From Elusimicrobiota bacterium (GTDB lineage Bacteria; Elusimicrobiota; UBA8919), in contig JAQUMH010000005.1 of the NCBI GenBank assembly GCA_028718185.1, forward strand, positions 62,001 through 126,000: a DNA stretch of 64,000 bases. The letters are read 5' to 3'. Positions 19,609-63,309 of this stretch are shown here, in pieces. Numbering within the stretch: the first letter of the stretch is position 1; the number at the start of each line of letters is the position of its first letter. Both the position numbers and the translations under genes were made by a program. The notes beneath the pieces were generated by a model. It searched no databases and was not told the DNA's origin. It worked only from the letters and a program-made list of their open reading frames with translations.

Positions 19609-19702
19609 TGGTTATTGGGTTTTAGAGTTATAGGGTTATAGGGTTTAAACTCTATGAACTCTATAACTCTACAAACTCTAAAACTCTCTATATTCTATAA
19701 CG
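19609..19702. repeat. GGTTATAG octamer hairpin spacer
   Basis: GGTTATAG-type octamers (19611-19647) are followed by the complementary AACTCTAT type (19648-19700), giving a long imperfect hairpin between the large-subunit and NuoL-like genes. The TAG stop of the large subunit lies inside the repeat. Confidence 0.8.
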
Positions 19703-20888
19703 CTTTTCTTATTTGCTCTGTTTTTTCTTGCGACAATTTTATTAAATCAAAACCGTTCATTAGTTTTTTGTTTTTTTCTTTATCAATGACAGCAACTCTT
19801 TCCGTACAACAATAACAAGGGTCAACTGCTGCTAAAATTAAGGCAGCATCTGAAATTGTCTGACCTTTTACCGCATATTGGTCTGAAGGGACATTAACGT
19901 AAGAAGGTGCACGTATTTTGTGACGGACAGGCCTGCTGCTTTTATCTGAACGGACATAATGAAATACTTCACCTCTCGGTGCTTCGTGCCTGCCTATACC
20001 TTCTCCAACAGGGATTTCTTTTACATTTAAATCAAAGTTGCCTTCCGGTTCTTTTTTAAGTCCCTCAAGACAACCACGAATAATTTTTACCGATTCGTAC
20101 ATTTCAAGGATACGGACTGCCGCTTTATCAAAAACATCACCATTCTGCGCCAAAATAACTTTCCAGTCAACCATACCATATGCCGCGTATGGATCATCCC
20201 TGCGAATATCCATATCTAAACCTGATGCTCTTGCAGTAGGACCCACTACACAATATTTTATCGCAACATCCTTTGGTAATATTCCTACACCTTTTGTTCT
20301 TGCATGAATAACAGGGTCATCCATTACAGCACCTTTGAACATATCCAAAACAGGAACCAATTCATTACACATTTTTTCAATCTGAGGAATGTCTTTTTTT
20401 TCTATGTCCCGTCGCGTACCGCCAATTTTCATCATTGCATAGTGCTGGCGATTGCCTGATATAAACTCTAATATGTCACAAACTAATTCCCTATATTTCC
20501 AACTCCACATCCATACAGTATTGTAACCTATAAAATGCCCTGCTAAACCAAGCCACAGAAGATGCGAGTGTAATCGTTCTAATTCACCTACAACCGAACG
20601 AATATATTTTGCACGAACAGAAATTTCAAAACCTGCCAAATCCTCAACGGCATTTACATATGCAAAAGGATGGCTCGAAGAACAAATTCCGCATATCCTT
20701 TCAACTAGAAACGCCGACTGGTCCCAGTGCAGTGATTCTGAAAGTTTTTCTATCCCCCTGTGGTTATATCCTATTTCAATATCCATATCAACCACTCTTT
20801 CACCTTCAACATAGAGTTTAAAAAATTCTCCTTCTTCCTGTAAAGGATGATACGGACCGATAGGAATGATTGTTCTTTTATCGTTCAT
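19695..20888 (-). CDS. mbhL: Group 4 [NiFe]-hydrogenase large subunit
   Basis: This 397-residue NuoD/MbhL homologue keeps both nickel-binding pairs: E-R-I-C66-G-I-C69 with H73 (L1 motif) and D-P-C358-Y-C-C361-T-E-R (L2 motif). Complex I NuoD and the sulfur-linked Mbx/Mbs paralogues lack one or both pairs, so this is expected to evolve or consume hydrogen. R-x-G-G-T-R-R-D-I (about residues 150) matches the family. The chain continues 36 residues past C361, which would be removed in part by the HycI-type protease encoded downstream. The gene lies between octamer repeat spacers on both sides. Confidence 0.97.
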   Translation of the reverse strand: MNDKRTIIPIGPYHPLQEEGEFFKLYVEGERVVDMDIEIGYNHRGIEKLSESLHWDQSAFLVERICGICSSSHPFAYVNAVEDLAGFEISVRAKYIRSVVGELERLHSHLLWLGLAGHFIGYNTVWMWSWKYRELVCDILEFISGNRQHYAMMKIGGTRRDIEKKDIPQIEKMCNELVPVLDMFKGAVMDDPVIHARTKGVGILPKDVAIKYCVVGPTARASGLDMDIRRDDPYAAYGMVDWKVILAQNGDVFDKAAVRILEMYESVKIIRGCLEGLKKEPEGNFDLNVKEIPVGEGIGRHEAPRGEVFHYVRSDKSSRPVRHKIRAPSYVNVPSDQYAVKGQTISDAALILAAVDPCYCCTERVAVIDKEKNKKLMNGFDLIKLSQEKTEQIRKAL

Positions 20889-20897
20889 AGTCGTCTT

Positions 20898-20980
20898 TGT
20901 GTTTTAGAGTTATAGGGTTATTGGGTTATAGGGTTTCAACCCTAAAACTCTACAAACTCTATAACGCTATAACCCTTTTA
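20898..20980. repeat. GGTTATAG octamer hairpin spacer
   Basis: Left half 20901-20937 (TTTTAGAGTTATAGGGTTA type) and right half 20938-20976 (AACCCTAAAACTCTAC type) are near reverse complements. It lies between the NuoC-like and NuoD-like genes. Confidence 0.8.
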
Positions 20981-21421
20981 CTTTCTTCCTTCTCCTTGTC
21001 CCTGCCTTAATGGATAATCGCCTTCGGGCCAGTCGTCTCTTAACAAAAGATGTTTCAAATTCGGGTGACCTTTGAAATTTATTCCTAACAACTCCCACAT
21101 TTCTCTTTCAATCCACTCGGCACCTTTTATAATATGTGAAATGGTTTCAATTTCCGGTTTCTCTTTATTAGTAATTAAAACACGAAACGAAATAACACTA
21201 CCGTCTTTATCATCACTAAAATGATAAAGAATTTCAATTCCGTCTCTTCTATCAGTACCTGTAGCAATAATGAATCTTAACTTTATATCATCAAACAAAT
21301 ATTTTGATATGCTGACAATATCTGACGGTGAAATATCGAAATAGAACCTTTTTTTATTTTTTTCTTCGTATTTTTTAATTTTATTTCCAAGTTTTTCTTT
21401 TATTTGTTCAATAACATTCAT
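20978..21421 (-). CDS. mbhK: Hydrogenase NuoC/MbhK-type subunit
   Basis: The 147-residue protein is a NuoC/30-kDa-subunit homologue. It ends with the typical W-I-E-R-E-M-W-E-L-L-G-I-N-F-K-G-H-P (about residues 103-120) and the L-L-R-D-D-W-P-E-G-D-Y-P-L-R segment. This subunit has no cofactor and supports contact between the small and large hydrogenase subunits. It overlaps the NuoB-like gene by four bases. Confidence 0.93.
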   Translation of the reverse strand: MNVIEQIKEKLGNKIKKYEEKNKKRFYFDISPSDIVSISKYLFDDIKLRFIIATGTDRRDGIEILYHFSDDKDGSVISFRVLITNKEKPEIETISHIIKGAEWIEREMWELLGINFKGHPNLKHLLLRDDWPEGDYPLRQGQGEGRK

Positions 21422-21852
21422 TTTTCGCCTCTTAATGCTTTTATCAGTTTAACAACACCCATTATCATAGCTTCCGGTTTTGGCGGGCAACCCGGAACAT
21501 ATGCATTTACCGGAATAATTTTATCTAAAGGACCGCAGGTATTATAAGAATCTCTGAACATTATCTCTGAACAGGCACAATTTCCTATTGCAATAACCAA
21601 AATAGGTTTCGGTGCCTGCTCATAAATCCGTTTTAAGCGGTCTACAATTTTTTTATTTACAGCACCTGTAACCAAAAGCGCATCGGCATGCCGGATTGAA
21701 CCCACAAGCTGAATACCAAACCTTTCCAAATCATGCCGTGGTGTTAAAGCGTCCAGTATTTCAATATCGCAGTTATTACAAGGACTGCAAGCCGTGTGAA
21801 ACACCCAGATTGACTTGGTAAGTACTTTAAGTTTTAGAGTTTTAGAGTTCAT
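21418..21852 (-). CDS. mbhJ: Hydrogenase small subunit, NuoB/MbhJ type
   Basis: The 144-residue protein carries the proximal [4Fe-4S] ligands of NuoB-type small subunits: C25-N-N-C28-D-I-E, C92/C94 in G-N-C-A-C, and C122 in P-G-C-P-P-K-P. It hands electrons to the Ni-Fe site of the large subunit. Its ATG and first seven codons (M-N-S-K-T-L-K) are encoded by the octamer repeat that flanks the four-helix-bundle gene, so the N-terminus may have been rebuilt by the repeat. No clear ribosome binding site is visible. Confidence 0.93.
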   Translation of the reverse strand: MNSKTLKLKVLTKSIWVFHTACSPCNNCDIEILDALTPRHDLERFGIQLVGSIRHADALLVTGAVNKKIVDRLKRIYEQAPKPILVIAIGNCACSEIMFRDSYNTCGPLDKIIPVNAYVPGCPPKPEAMIMGVVKLIKALRGEK

Positions 21853-21869
21853 AGAGTTATAGGGTTTTT
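21831..21869. repeat. Octamer repeat, left bracket of IVP gene
   Basis: TTTTAGAG / TTATAGGG octamers run from the N-terminal codons of the NuoB-like gene through the stop codon of the four-helix-bundle gene. They are the reverse complement of the array at 22226-22270. Confidence 0.8.
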
Positions 21870-22225
21870 GATAAATATTTTATCAAATTTGAATCCATTT
21901 TTGCCACTTTATCTGCTTGATTGTATATGGAATAAAAAGTATTATCGTTTATATATTCCAAATCTTTCATAACATAAAGAATACTTTGAGTTTCAGAAAC
22001 AGATGCTTTTGAGATATATAAAAATTGTATAAATTCTTTATTTGAATGCCGTGAAAATCCTTCGGCAATATTACTCATTATTGATACAGAAGCACTCGTT
22101 AACTGGTTTACTAATCTATAATCTTTTTTAAATTTATCACAGCAATTAATTGTTTCATAAACCATTTTTACCAATTTTCTTGCCTCTTGCCAAACTTCCA
22201 AATCTTCAAACCTTTCTATTTTCAT
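21857..22225 (-). CDS. Four-helix-bundle (23S rRNA IVP-type) protein
   Basis: The 122-residue protein matches the four-helix-bundle family first found as the open frame in 23S rRNA intervening sequences: F-E-D-L-E-V-W-Q-E-A-R-K-L near the start, then Q-L-T-S-A-S-V-S-I-M-S-N-I-A-E-G-F-S-R (about residues 41-59). Its molecular role is not established. Here it interrupts the hydrogenase operon between the NuoB and NuoH homologues. It is bracketed by octamer arrays that are reverse complements of each other, which would place the gene in the loop of a long hairpin. Its TAA stop lies inside the left array, and its ATG directly abuts the right array. Confidence 0.92.
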   Translation of the reverse strand: MKIERFEDLEVWQEARKLVKMVYETINCCDKFKKDYRLVNQLTSASVSIMSNIAEGFSRHSNKEFIQFLYISKASVSETQSILYVMKDLEYINDNTFYSIYNQADKVAKMDSNLIKYLSKTL

Positions 22226-22270
22226 TATAACTCTATAACTCTATAACTCTATAACCCTATAACCCTAATA
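22226..22270. repeat. Octamer repeat, right bracket of IVP gene
   Basis: Five AACTCTAT / AACCCTAT octamers start at the base next to the ATG of the four-helix-bundle gene and end in the C-terminal codons of the NuoH-like gene. They can pair with 21831-21869. Confidence 0.8.
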
Positions 22271-23188
22271 TCCTATCGATGCTAAAACTATTGCAAAAAT
22301 TGAAAAAATTAGACAACTTCGCCAGAAAAATCGCATTGCCTGGTCAATCCTTACTCGTGGATTAGTATTTCTTATTAAAACAATTAAAACCAGAACCAAA
22401 ACATATTTTAAAATTCCCCAAATAATTGACATGCCTTCAAATTTTATACCGCCAAAAAATAAAATCACTGCAAAAAAGGGAATCACAAACAAAAGCATCA
22501 TACGATTTAATTTATGAATTGCAAGCAAGATACCGGAATATTCTATAAAAACACCGCCTGCTATTTCTGTTTCTGCTTCAGCCATATCAAATGGAACAAG
22601 CCCTAACTTTGCCTGGATTGATAGAAGAAAAACAATAAAAGCAATTATACCGGAAAATGAATTTAAAACAATTCCTTGTGTCTGCTGATATGAAACAATT
22701 TCACCTAACTTTATAGTCTGTAATTTTATAATTAATACTATTATCGATAAAATAAACGGAAGCTCGTAAGAAACATATAGCTTCATTTCACGTGAAGCAG
22801 CAAGTGAGGCAATCGGATTACCTGATGCGCTCGCACCCAAAATAACAGAAATTGGAGTAATTGCTAAAAGATAAATTACTACAATTAAATCACCGACAAA
22901 GAGCATCTGTGGATTTAACACAGATTTCCACAGAATCAAAGATACAAGTGTAGTGGAAGCTACCGCAAAAAAAGGTGCAAGAATAAAAATAGGGCTATTC
23001 GCATTATTTGGTATAATGGTCTCTCTATTTAAAAGTTTCACAAAATCATAAAACGGCTGAAAAAAAGGAGGACCTTGCCGCCATTGAACACGGGCAGTAA
23101 CCTTTCTGTCAATCCAGGAAACAACCATCCCGATAATAGCAGTAAACACAAACCCCGGAAAAACAACAAATTCAAATAATAATTTCAT
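22265..23188 (-). CDS. mbhM: Hydrogenase membrane anchor, NuoH/MbhM type
   Basis: This 307-residue protein has about eight helices and the NuoH signatures: S-W-I-D-R-K-V-T-A-R-V-Q-W-R-Q-G-P (about residues 24-40) and F-D-M-A-E-A-E-T-E-I-A-G-G (about 199-211), whose acidic residues are linked to the quinone/ion pathway in complex I. In membrane-bound hydrogenases it connects the hydrogenase arm to the ion-pumping arm. It is the first core subunit encoded after the ferredoxin gene and is separated from it by an octamer spacer. Confidence 0.95.
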   Translation of the reverse strand: MKLLFEFVVFPGFVFTAIIGMVVSWIDRKVTARVQWRQGPPFFQPFYDFVKLLNRETIIPNNANSPIFILAPFFAVASTTLVSLILWKSVLNPQMLFVGDLIVVIYLLAITPISVILGASASGNPIASLAASREMKLYVSYELPFILSIIVLIIKLQTIKLGEIVSYQQTQGIVLNSFSGIIAFIVFLLSIQAKLGLVPFDMAEAETEIAGGVFIEYSGILLAIHKLNRMMLLFVIPFFAVILFFGGIKFEGMSIIWGILKYVLVLVLIVLIRNTNPRVRIDQAMRFFWRSCLIFSIFAIVLASIGY

Positions 23189-23195
23189 AATAGTT

Positions 23196-23291
23196 ACGTT
23201 ATAGAGTTATAGGGTTATAGGGTTTTAGGGTTTTAGGGTTTTAGGGTTTTTAACTCTACAAACGCTACGAACTCTATAACTCTATAACTTT
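23196..23291. repeat. GGTTTTAG octamer hairpin spacer
   Basis: This is the longest clean array: TTATAGAG-TTATAGGG followed by four GGTTTTAG units (23198-23250), then AACTCTAC / AACTCTAT units (23252-23290). It forms a long hairpin between the polyferredoxin and NuoH-like genes. Confidence 0.85.
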
Positions 23292-23786
23292 TTACTTCTT
23301 CCATTTTAAACTATACACCAAAAGTTTATCGGATATTTTATAAATATTCTTCGACTCATCTTCTTCTATATCTACCCACTGTAAAATATTATCTTTGCAT
23401 GTACTGACACACATCGGCGGCTTACCGTTACTTCTATCAATACAATAGTCACATTGTGATGTCTTGTAAGGTAATATATCTAAATATATAGTACCAAAAG
23501 GACAGGCAACCGAACAAGTCTTACAGGAAGTACACCTCATAGAATATCTTTGTAAAATTCCTTCATTGTTTTTTTCAAGTGCTTCGTTAGGACATGAAAT
23601 AATGCAATCGGCACGTTTACATTGCCGGCATATAACATACTGTGCCGCTTTTGCAAGAAGTTTTTCAACACCATCATTTTTAGGTGCATCATAAGCAGTC
23701 CCTTGATGATAAAAATAGCTGCATTCGGAAGAAAAATCTTCCATTTTATAATACTTTTCCAAATCAATAAGAATTTTTTTATTCAT
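23292..23786 (-). CDS. Polyferredoxin, HycB/CooF type
   Basis: The 164-residue protein has cysteine clusters C-R-Q-C-K-R-A-D-C-I-I-S-C-P (about residues 53-66), C-T-S-C-K-T-C-S-V-A-C-P (81-92) and C-D-Y-C with a later C-V-S-T-C, typical of multi-cluster electron-transfer subunits such as HycB, CooF or HydN. It would carry electrons between the HydB/HydG-like flavin module and the hydrogenase core. It precedes mbhM and follows the HydG-like gene in the operon. Confidence 0.85.
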   Translation of the reverse strand: MNKKILIDLEKYYKMEDFSSECSYFYHQGTAYDAPKNDGVEKLLAKAAQYVICRQCKRADCIISCPNEALEKNNEGILQRYSMRCTSCKTCSVACPFGTIYLDILPYKTSQCDYCIDRSNGKPPMCVSTCKDNILQWVDIEEDESKNIYKISDKLLVYSLKWKK

Positions 23787-23839
23787 AAACCTTACCTAAT
23801 CACAAAGCGAGCAAGAAATTTATCCTACATTAATCGCGA

Positions 23840-23945
23840 GCGAGGGAGAAATTTCTGAAGAGCCTAAATTTGCGACTTATTATTTCCAGGAGCAAATGAT
23901 AGAGCGAGTTCTAACGAGCGTCTCGAAGAAATTTACTCCCGAACG
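23840..23945 (-). repeat. 106-bp dispersed element, copy 2
   Basis: This copy is about 90% identical to 12428-12533 over the full length without gaps. It has terminal inverted repeats around GGGAGAAATTT / AAATTTACTCCC. On the minus strand it starts one base after the TAG stop codon of the HydG-like gene. Confidence 0.75.
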
Positions 23946-23946
23946 G

Positions 23947-24765
23947 CTAGTCCCAAAGTTCCTCTAAATCCTTTATTTTATCGTATAAAAAAACCGGACC
24001 GTCTTTACATACAAAATAGGGACCTAACTGACAATGTCCGCATTTACCAAGACCGCAAGACATGTTTTTTTCCATTGAAAGATAAATATTTTTAGGTGAA
24101 AACCCTACTTCCAATAGTTTTTTCGTACCGAATTTCATCATTATCGGAGGCCCGCAGACAATAGCAACCGAATTTTTTAAATCAACTTTTACTTTATCCA
24201 AAAGACATGTCACGACCCCGACACTTTCTTTCCATACGCCTTCCGGACATTTATCTACACTTCTTAAAATATCCAACTTTTTTATTTTCTTCCAATCTTC
24301 AAATTCTGATTTATAAATTATATCTTCGGGACTCTTTGAACCGTAACATAAAGTAACCTTTTTAAATTTATCAATTTGTTTAACTAATGTTAAAAGAAAT
24401 GACCGTAACGGCGCCATCCCAACACCGCCACCCAATATCAAAACCTCTTTATCTACCATTTCTTCTATAGGATACCCTTTGCCATACGGACCGCGGATAC
24501 CGACAATATCGCCTTTTTTCAATTGATGTATTTTTTCAGTAACATATCCGGCTCTCATTATGGTAACATCTATTGTCTCAGTTTTATATGGTGAAGAAGA
24601 AGGAGTAAAAGGCGATTCTCCAATCCCGTTAAGTGAAAATTCAATAAATTGCCCGGTTACAAATGAAAATTTTTCAGACGGTTTTAGAGTAAATGTTTTT
24701 ATGTTGGAGCTCTCGTCTGTTATATTTACAACTTCCGCCTTAATTGGTTGATAAATGTTCTTCAT
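23947..24765 (-). CDS. HydG/AsrB-type FAD/NAD(P)-binding oxidoreductase
   Basis: The 272-residue protein has a ferredoxin-reductase FAD domain (about residues 1-98), an NAD(P)-binding domain with L-G-G-G-V-G-M-A-P-L-R (about 112-122) and a C-terminal [2Fe-2S] motif C-x4-C-x2-C-x7-C (about 237-253). This is the layout of sulfhydrogenase gamma (HydG) and AsrB. It likely exchanges electrons between NAD(P)H and the iron-sulfur chain. Its pairing with the HydB-like gene upstream in a group 4 hydrogenase operon is unusual. Such pairs usually accompany group 3b enzymes or sulfite reductase. Confidence 0.9.
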   Translation of the reverse strand: MKNIYQPIKAEVVNITDESSNIKTFTLKPSEKFSFVTGQFIEFSLNGIGESPFTPSSSPYKTETIDVTIMRAGYVTEKIHQLKKGDIVGIRGPYGKGYPIEEMVDKEVLILGGGVGMAPLRSFLLTLVKQIDKFKKVTLCYGSKSPEDIIYKSEFEDWKKIKKLDILRSVDKCPEGVWKESVGVVTCLLDKVKVDLKNSVAIVCGPPIMMKFGTKKLLEVGFSPKNIYLSMEKNMSCGLGKCGHCQLGPYFVCKDGPVFLYDKIKDLEELWD

Positions 24766-24770
24766 AAAGT

Positions 24771-24835
24771 TTGGAGAGTTATAGAGTTCATAGAGTTTAA
24801 ACCCTAAAACCCAATAACCCTAAAACGCTATAACA
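24771..24835. repeat. GGTTATAG octamer hairpin spacer
   Basis: GAGTTATAGAGTTCATAGAG (24775-24795) is followed by AACCCTAAAACCCAATAACC-type units (24800-24832). It lies between the HydB-like and HydG-like genes. Confidence 0.75.
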
Positions 24836-42267: not shown

Positions 42268-42336
42268 CAATTGGGTTATTGAGTTATAGAGTTATAGGGT
42301 TTTAGGGTTTAAATCCTACGAACTCTAAAACTCTTA
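42268..42336. repeat. GGTTATAG octamer hairpin spacer
   Basis: GGTTATTGAG-TTATAGAG-TTATAGGG units (42272-42310) face CCTACGAACTCTAAAACTCT (42315-42334). It lies between the lpxL-like and O-antigen ligase-like genes. Confidence 0.75.
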
Positions 42337-61797: not shown

Positions 61798-63309
61798 ATG
61801 GTCAGTAATGGCAGGCTTGATTGTGCTTTGTTTAAACGGTTTATTTGGATTGGGTTTTTAATTTGTTTTGTTAATTTACCGCTCCAGGCGGAACAAAATG
61901 TCAGGGAAGCTGTGGTAAAAATATATACTACATTTAACAGGTATAATTACCAGGAACCATGGCAAATGAAAGGACAAGAACAGGGTGTAGGTTCCGGATG
62001 TATTATTAGCGGAAAAAGAATTTTAACATGTGCACATGTCGTGAGTGATTATACATATATTGAAGTAAAACGGGCAGAAGAAACTAAAAAATATCCTGCA
62101 AAAGTAGAAATAATTGCCAATGATTGCGACCTTGCTATTTTACGGGTTGATGACAACCAGTTTTTTTCTGATAAAAAACCGCTTGAATTCGGTACTCTGC
62201 CTATAAGCGGAGACAGGGTAAAAGCATATGGTTTTCCTACGGGAGGGGACGAAATATGTACTACCGAAGGAGTTGTTTCAAGAATAGAACATATCTTTTA
62301 TACCTTTAACCAATCCTGGTTATTGGGCTGTCAATTTGATGCTGCAATTAACCCGGGAAATAGCGGCGGTCCGGTGGTTAACAAGGATGGAAAAATGATA
62401 GGGGTTGCATTCCAGGCAGGCGGCGGTGAAAACATCAGTTATATGGTCTCAATGCCTGTAATTAACCACTTCCTTAAAGATATTGAAGACGGGAAATATG
62501 ACGGGATACCCGGAGATTATATAATTGTTCAGACAATGGAAAATCCTGCAATGCGAGAAAAATATAAAATGAGCAAAGACCAAAGCGGCGTATTAGTAAT
62601 GAAGGTTACGCCCAATAGTCCGGCAAGTGATATATTAAAAACCGAAGATGTAATACTTTCATACGATAATAATAAAATCAGCAATGACGGAAAAGTAGAA
62701 TTTAGAAAAGGTGAAAAAACAGCATATGATTATATATATCAAAACAAATTTATTAATGATAAGGTTAAAATTGAACTATTAAGGGACAGCAAAGTTATGG
62801 ATGTTGAAATGAAATTATGGGCGTCTATGAACGCTCTTCGTTTAGTTCCGCCTCCCCAATATGATGTGGCACCGACATATTATATCTATGGCGGTCTGGT
62901 ATTTGAACCCTTGACTTCAAATCTGTTCCGGGATTTGGGTTCAATATCAATATCAATTATACCTTTAGCAAATTATTTCTTTTCCGGTGAGTTATTAACG
63001 GAAGGGAGAAAACAGATAATAGTTCTGACTAAAATTCTTTCTGATGAAGTTAATACCGGGTATGCAACAGGATATAATCCTTTACCTCTGTTCGAAGTAA
63101 TTTCATCTGTAAACGGAATAAAAATTTCAACAATGAACGACTTAATAAATGCTTTTGAAAACTTTAACGGGAAATATGTTACTATAATAGATGAAAGGGG
63201 TTTTAAGATAGTTTTAGATAAAGACGAAGTTGATAAAAATAAACAAAATATACTTAAAAAATACAAAATTATTTCTGACAGGTCAGCAGATTTGATTGGT
63301 AAAAAGTGA
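61798..63309 (+). CDS. Secreted HtrA/Deg-like trypsin-family protease
   Basis: From the ATG at 61798, behind GGAGG, the protein has 503 residues: a signal peptide (about 1-31), a trypsin-like domain with H80 (C-A-H-V-V), D111 (C-D-L-A-I-L) and S189 (N-S-G-G), and PDZ-like regions (about 265-350 and later). The D-A-A-I-N-P-G-N-S-G-G motif is that of plant Deg-type and bacterial HtrA-like proteases. The frame opens at 61765, but the internal ATG has the ribosome binding site. It is a single plus-strand gene with its own promoter. Confidence 0.88.
   Translation: MVSNGRLDCALFKRFIWIGFLICFVNLPLQAEQNVREAVVKIYTTFNRYNYQEPWQMKGQEQGVGSGCIISGKRILTCAHVVSDYTYIEVKRAEETKKYPAKVEIIANDCDLAILRVDDNQFFSDKKPLEFGTLPISGDRVKAYGFPTGGDEICTTEGVVSRIEHIFYTFNQSWLLGCQFDAAINPGNSGGPVVNKDGKMIGVAFQAGGGENISYMVSMPVINHFLKDIEDGKYDGIPGDYIIVQTMENPAMREKYKMSKDQSGVLVMKVTPNSPASDILKTEDVILSYDNNKISNDGKVEFRKGEKTAYDYIYQNKFINDKVKIELLRDSKVMDVEMKLWASMNALRLVPPPQYDVAPTYYIYGGLVFEPLTSNLFRDLGSISISIIPLANYFFSGELLTEGRKQIIVLTKILSDEVNTGYATGYNPLPLFEVISSVNGIKISTMNDLINAFENFNGKYVTIIDERGFKIVLDKDEVDKNKQNILKKYKIISDRSADLIGKK

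Follow-up and report, generated by a model that had tools for sequence, protein, structure and literature searches.

Putatively mobile, IVS-like elements carrying an IVP gene in protein-coding operons, with apparent gene-less derivatives of REPIN/RAYT-like organisation

Closest described systems and the hydrogenase-operon locus

IVP proteins are a very common family of small proteins, known mostly from insertions in rRNA and with no assigned function. In the intervening sequences (IVSs) of the 23S rRNA of Coxiella, Leptospira and Brucella, a gene of this family occupies the loop between the two halves of a terminal inverted repeat, the whole measuring about 430-470 nt. The Coxiella IVS has tandem heptamers (GACAGAT) directly ahead of the S23p start codon and is cut by RNase III in its stem (PMC4990558). 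The protein has been described as a toroidal homopentamer (Lin et al., 2006, as cited in passages of PMC4990558 and PMC10053308), and PDB 2gsc came out as a match in our analysis. The structures of Avd and PF05635 (4DWL and 2GSC, respectively) are reported to be alignable (PMC10053308). Avd is a component of diversity-generating retroelements whose fold is homologous to that of IVP, but these retroelements include a template/variable repeat and a reverse transcriptase, neither of which is known as part of an IVP element.

The closest organisational parallel to the element described here, built around a different protein, is the REPIN/RAYT system. In both cases each repeat family has a single, distinct gene that the repeat flanks, and many gene-less inverted pairs occur in intergenic space (PMC3116915). 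However, the RAYT gene encodes a tyrosine (Y1-type) transposase and not a four-helix-bundle IVP, REPIN repeats are single palindromes and not tandem arrays, and the IVP gene seems to travel with its arms. Short dispersed arrays have also been reported on their own. The Geobacter metallireducens sites consist of four octamers or five heptamers each, mostly in opposite-strand pairs, and are read as binding sites of a global regulator, the sections available of that paper (PMC2700814) containing no link to IVP. The cyanobacterial STRR heptamers and the TAACTGA repeats of Beggiatoaceae resemble the IVP arrays in being dispersed intergenic heptamer arrays, but are described as mainly direct repeats of unexplained origin, with no link to IVP in the portions available of the published accounts; for the TAACTGA repeats a tie to a mobile binding protein has been discussed as a possibility (in the part available of PMC4679880). 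In the open-licence literature we came across no publication that connects IVP genes with tandem arrays. The paired heptamer or octamer sites and the heptamers of the Coxiella IVS are already published, and what appears to be new is their link to IVP genes.

The window (the whole stretch of 64,000 nt analysed here, contig JAQUMH010000005.1 of an Elusimicrobiota bacterium, positions 62,001 to 126,000) contains an IVP gene within a hydrogenase operon. The relevant features are the following:

19614-19689, no strand assigned: gene-less inverted octamer array, hydrogenase operon
20896-20978, no strand assigned: gene-less inverted octamer array, hydrogenase operon, in the spacer of the NuoC-like and NuoD-like genes
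21418-21852, minus strand: NuoB-like hydrogenase subunit, the next gene after IVP, its first codons supplied by the 3' arm
21826-21866, minus strand: 3' arm of the element, made up of AACYCTAW units, one step being a nonamer
21857-22225, minus strand: IVP coding sequence (23S_rRNA_IVP, S23p, four helix bundle), 122 aa, PF05635 profile
22229-22276, minus strand: 5' arm, preceding the IVP gene, about five to six ATAGRGTT octamers
22265-23188, minus strand: NuoH-like hydrogenase subunit, upstream of the element
23193-23293, no strand assigned: gene-less inverted octamer array, hydrogenase operon
24773-24831, no strand assigned: gene-less inverted octamer array, hydrogenase operon
42270-42336, no strand assigned: gene-less inverted octamer array, outside the hydrogenase operon

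PF05635 was the sole Pfam match of the IVP protein in the profile search (E=5.7e-35; 120.2 bits, with a curated cut-off of 33.8). The initial annotation had described a gene that adjoins one octamer array and ends in its reverse complement, and this is what the arms at 22229-22276 and 21826-21866 show. Read along the minus strand, the 5' arm (22276-22229) stops 3 nt short of the IVP ATG, and the 3' arm (21866-21826) includes the stop codon of the gene, TAA. This 3' arm also furnishes the ATG of the NuoB-like ORF (21418-21852), whose product starts with MNSKTLKLKVLTKSIW here versus MSAPIKIKALTKSIW in relatives; the gene upstream of the element has the same end, ATAGGATATTA, here and in relatives. 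As in an IVS, complementary ends are predicted to form a stem around the ORF: in the folded RNA both arms are paired and the gene is looped out, in the minimum free energy structure and in the centroid (z=-2.8), as had been suggested for the mRNA. The neighbouring spacers had been taken for the same hairpin without a gene, and indeed five such hairpins are found in the window, four of them in the hydrogenase operon, with folding z values from -3.7 to -7.7.

The setting of the element, between the NuoH-like and NuoB-like genes, is not a 23S rRNA helix. Since this is the location that defines IVSs, we regard the element as IVS-like and have not filed it as an IVS. In addition to being part of a protein-coding operon, it differs from the 23S rRNA IVSs in its tandem 7-9-mer arms and in having dispersed gene-less copies. 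On the other hand, the proposed kinship to these IVSs gains strength from the heptamers beside the Coxiella S23p start codon (PMC4990558).

Five octamer elements (four empty, one occupied) are crowded within one 5-kb operon (19614-24831), the density in an 800-kb sample being about one site per 28 kb. This crowding suggests local clustering or a favoured target.

Occupied and empty spacers, and IVP loci of other genomes

We have compared the hydrogenase operon of eight genomes from one family. Most relatives have a short, native NuoH-NuoB spacer, and only here does it contain an IVP gene and octamers. The NuoC-NuoD spacer, short and native in several of these genomes, has an empty octamer pair here and an IVP gene with another unit in a relative (L076/L114), the unit in G006 being AGTTCAT; IVP genes with other units also occupy this spacer at L093 and L135. 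The operon thus occurs in relatives both with and without an IVP gene, and the arrays that this genome has in it are missing from most of them. At L115 (G004), the NuoC-NuoD spacer contains an unrelated small coiled-coil-like gene and no arrays.

The spacer between recO and glyQ can be called native, empty and occupied, because all three states were found among relatives. Three genomes have GATAGTGS arrays and an IVP gene, another three have inverted arrays of other units and no gene (z from -3.5 to -5.2 against shuffles) and four have neither gene nor arrays (two of these spacers were folded, with z near 0). Together with the hydrogenase spacers, these cases sustain the original idea of an IVS-like unit that has empty and occupied forms in mRNA spacers. 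The presence of different units at one orthologous spacer could be due to repeated insertion or to turnover of the unit in place.

The window octamer was not found near the three other IVP genes of this genome. The gene at C2:107832 has its own inverted unit, GCGGATAA, arrays of which are also found without a gene at several genome sites away from this copy. The one at C1:471967, upstream of glyQ, has the inverted unit GTGSGATA, and the disrupted gene at C2:106829-107146 (L001) has a GGAAGTG heptamer pair that is clear by eye. The initial annotation had counted against itself the finding of IVP genes that are not bracketed by these arrays. Taken literally this applies to three of the four genes, the cause being that their units differ; what the loci have in common is not the octamer, as the 7-9-mer changes from one IVP lineage to the next. 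The gene of L001 (G000:C2:106829-107146, G000 being this genome) contains an internal stop codon and is apparently decaying.

For a wider comparison we have used 133 IVP loci, 53 from the same phylum and 80 named loci from many phyla (the named genomes were searched with a single-protein query). A locus was considered bracketed when its best inverted match between the two flanks exceeded the cross-locus 95th percentile. By this measure 97 of the 133 loci (73%) were bracketed, against 10 of 328 mock positions (3%) within the same loci, and so were 15 of 17 held-out loci that had no part in setting the threshold (from Nostoc, Planktothrix, WOR-3 and other genomes). About a quarter of the IVP loci had no significant inverted match under this inter-flank test. 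Tandem repeat detection found a 6-10-nt array in at least one flank of 129 of the 133 loci (upstream in 118, downstream in 111), with a permissive background of 24% in control windows. When both flanks had an array, the period was the same in 83 of 100 loci (7/7 in 42, 8/8 in 22 and 9/9 in 17). The arms have most often 4-5 copies (median 5), and the G-rich arm is the upstream one in 100 of the 106 loci that show a difference. The Nostoc IVP genes, for example, have inverted heptamers on both sides. Bracketing by inverted, locus-specific 7-9-mer arrays is the general architecture of IVP loci.

The 3' array often extends into the start of the next gene and may encode part of its N terminus (L065, L064, L090, L097, L105). 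Prepilin leaders, such as MKKPNFHFPNLPISGFTIVELM in L065, and stretches resembling signal peptides (L097) are among the N-termini touched in this way.

The gene, its arms and the dispersed arrays

A way to approach the relationship between arrays and gene is to compare arms across loci whose neighbours are not homologous. An arm matched the opposite arm of the other locus in 48% of the pairs with IVP identity of at least 60% and in 1% of those below 50%, a correlation that was reached by none of 200 permutations. The sequence of the unit is thus tied to the IVP lineage, as shown for close relatives. Furthermore, four IVP pairs are homologous over arm, ORF and arm, their flanks being mostly unrelated: a pair of copies located 2 kb apart within one genome (G002; 81% over 478 nt), L074/L068 (80%, both directly upstream of a prepilin-like coding sequence), L253/L072 (79%) and L070/L075 (75%). 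The pN/pS of the ORF is 0.15-0.43 in these pairs and 0.09-0.34 in vertically inherited ones, and the IVP protein is under purifying selection. These alignments show the gene and its arrays as one unit that has moved between genomic sites over evolutionary time. Neither recent near-identical copies nor target-site duplications were seen, the best within-genome pair being only 81% identical, and the 21 matching plasmid records, all below 60% identity, included no close occupied/empty pairs. Of the mobility that had been proposed, movement on the evolutionary scale is therefore upheld by the homology of arm, ORF and arm at unrelated sites, and present-day movement is not.

Apparent tRNA duplications at L087 and L089 were discarded, both loci being cut at the contig end. 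One plasmid-labelled record (L254, Riemerella anatipestifer NZ_CP081938.1) carries lepA and an IVP gene and may be a piece of chromosome.

The arrays are by no means restricted to the surroundings of IVP genes. The 16-mer TATAACYCTATAACYC occurs 71 times in this genome (reversed control 0) and at most 4 times in the 59 relatives. Counting gene-less octamer sites over 800 kb plus selected loci gave 61, of which 40 have both arms and only one is within an ORF. Gene-less hairpins share the tip RGTTTWAACY and can stand in either orientation. A de novo scan of 800 kb (G000:C1 1-800000) found 80 arrays of period 7 and 93 of period 8, belonging to many unit families, compared to 12 of each in Markov sequence. 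Among the further families in this region are GTTCAYGTG-type octamers and GGACATC/GGACTTC heptamers, for which no cognate IVP was found in the genome. The hairpins were also compared with Rfam families, but all matches fell under the gathering score and look like chance.

We have examined how far the dispersed arrays follow the presence of a cognate IVP gene. Arrays of GATARYGS are found only in the three family genomes that have an IVP gene with that unit (6, 48 and 9 matches), the five other genomes of the family and the reversed control giving 0. GTTCTTRA is commonest in G001 (67 matches), which has a gltX IVP with that unit, and is found 29 times in G004, which also has one, but there are 35 matches in this genome, which has no such IVP (for this unit, the reversed pattern does not serve as a clean control). 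The Planktothrix genome (G342, source of loci L325-L336 with the exception of L326, from Nostoc G341) has 88 matches of ATTCGTAATTCGTAATTC and two IVP genes, neither of them with this unit. Since the Planktothrix and GTTCTTRA arrays occur without a cognate IVP, the link between unit and protein is real but not strict. Arrays of the same unit away from the gene, found for several units and mostly paired and gene-less, would be empty forms or non-autonomous derivatives of the element.

Alternative explanations and a possible mechanism

Taking these observations together, we conclude from comparative evidence that this is an IVS-like IVP element of protein-coding operons, mobile on the evolutionary scale, whose gene-less derivatives would be REPIN/RAYT-like. 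In our view, the segment 21826-22276 is likely to be a copy of an element from a widespread class, in which the IVP gene and the inverted arrays act as a mobile unit; in such a class the start and stop of the IVP gene would abut inverted arrays with a unit of 7, 8 or 9 nt, mostly in 4-5 copies per arm. It is probably a widespread and little-noticed mobile cassette that leaves empty copies behind.

The alternative that survives best, although we find it rather unlikely, is a stable intervening sequence acting at the RNA level, RNase III cutting the mRNA stem and thereby removing or separating the IVP segment. The predicted pairing of the arms and the RNase III cut within the stem of the Coxiella IVS (PMC4990558) point in this direction, and so does the excess of G-U over A-C among arm mismatches in the larger set (128 vs 91, p=0.015). 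However, this bias is weak and disappears in the smaller, stricter set (49 vs 48, no asymmetry), and the gene-less hairpins have no folding advantage on the sense strand (7 vs 15 for sense and antisense, against the expected direction). Moreover, the core AACYC is spaced by 8 nt in 288 cases and by 9 nt in 76 within the gene-less pairs, and the two arms of a pair often differ in this respect (8 against 9), which results in bulges, so that the spacing fits repeated protein binding sites at least as well as a helix. Nor does this reading alone explain the gene-less copies elsewhere.

We think it improbable that IVP is a regulator, with the dispersed arrays as the binding sites of its regulon and the arms as autoregulatory sites. 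It would agree with the link between unit and IVP lineage, with the annotation of the Geobacter metallireducens paired sites as targets of a global regulator and with the binding protein proposed for the TAACTGA repeats (in the parts available of PMC2700814 and PMC4679880, respectively). On the other hand, the arrays of the hydrogenase operon are not conserved in position and are missing from most relatives, orthologous spacers bear different units, and the IVP gene travels with both arms. Even less probable is that the arrays are REPIN/MITE-like, moved by an unrelated transposase, and that the IVP genes are passengers caught in the tip of the hairpin. The common tip of the gene-less hairpins in either orientation and the similar layout of REPIN/RAYT (PMC3116915) would be expected under this explanation, but across many phyla dozens of unrelated units are found around this single gene family, and the unit follows the IVP phylogeny. 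Finally, short tandem repeats arise easily, as the permissive background in control windows indicates, but the excess of inverted pairing over mock positions, the equal period on both sides and the empty reversed-pattern controls leave hardly any room for chance or replication slippage beside small genes.

Returning to the mobile unit, its position suggests that the element would be transcribed along with the host operon, and in the predicted RNA fold the gene is looped out. In the mechanism that we favour, the toroidal homopentamer might recognise the array of roughly five units, either as RNA or in the form of single-stranded DNA; because the arms hold 4-5 units and IVP is homopentameric, we envisage one ring per array. 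To our knowledge, IVP itself is not an enzyme, and for this reason we propose that it may recruit enzymes, of the host or of other origin, that carry out the copying and insertion. The 23S rRNA IVS would be the special case of an element located in an rRNA helix.

More tentatively, and with rather less confidence than for the segment itself, IVP genes with inverted, lineage-specific 7-9-mer arrays could make up an unrecognised class of mobile elements over bacterial phyla (plus one archaeal contig), in which a pentameric ring reads an array of about five units. Many dispersed heptamer and octamer repeats of bacterial genomes (the cyanobacterial STRRs and the Geobacter paired sites among them) could stem from this class, and the 23S rRNA IVSs would be one specialised insertion. 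If this is true, the IVP family gains a testable function, the recognition of its cognate array, and the repeat bound by each IVP becomes predictable gene by gene from sequence. It would also explain the origin of many dispersed heptamers and octamers, and would bring together the intervening sequences of rRNA, short tandem repeats and proteins of the Avd type.

The initial annotation had also proposed that the unit targets mRNA spacers, an idea that we have dropped. The neighbours of IVP loci are codirectional in 119 of 131 and 111 of 133 cases, but these figures tell little because this genome has the same orientation in 91% of its adjacent ORF pairs, so that the operon setting is the genome background.

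Certain genes are preceded by an IVP element in more than one genome (gene names as read from the sequence), the cases being glyQ (L004/L067/L082), gltX (L080/L081), serS (L108), carB (L140/L141/L145) and glmS (L152/L156). Aminoacyl-tRNA synthetases, prepilins and the hydrogenase operon stand out among the recurrent hosts.
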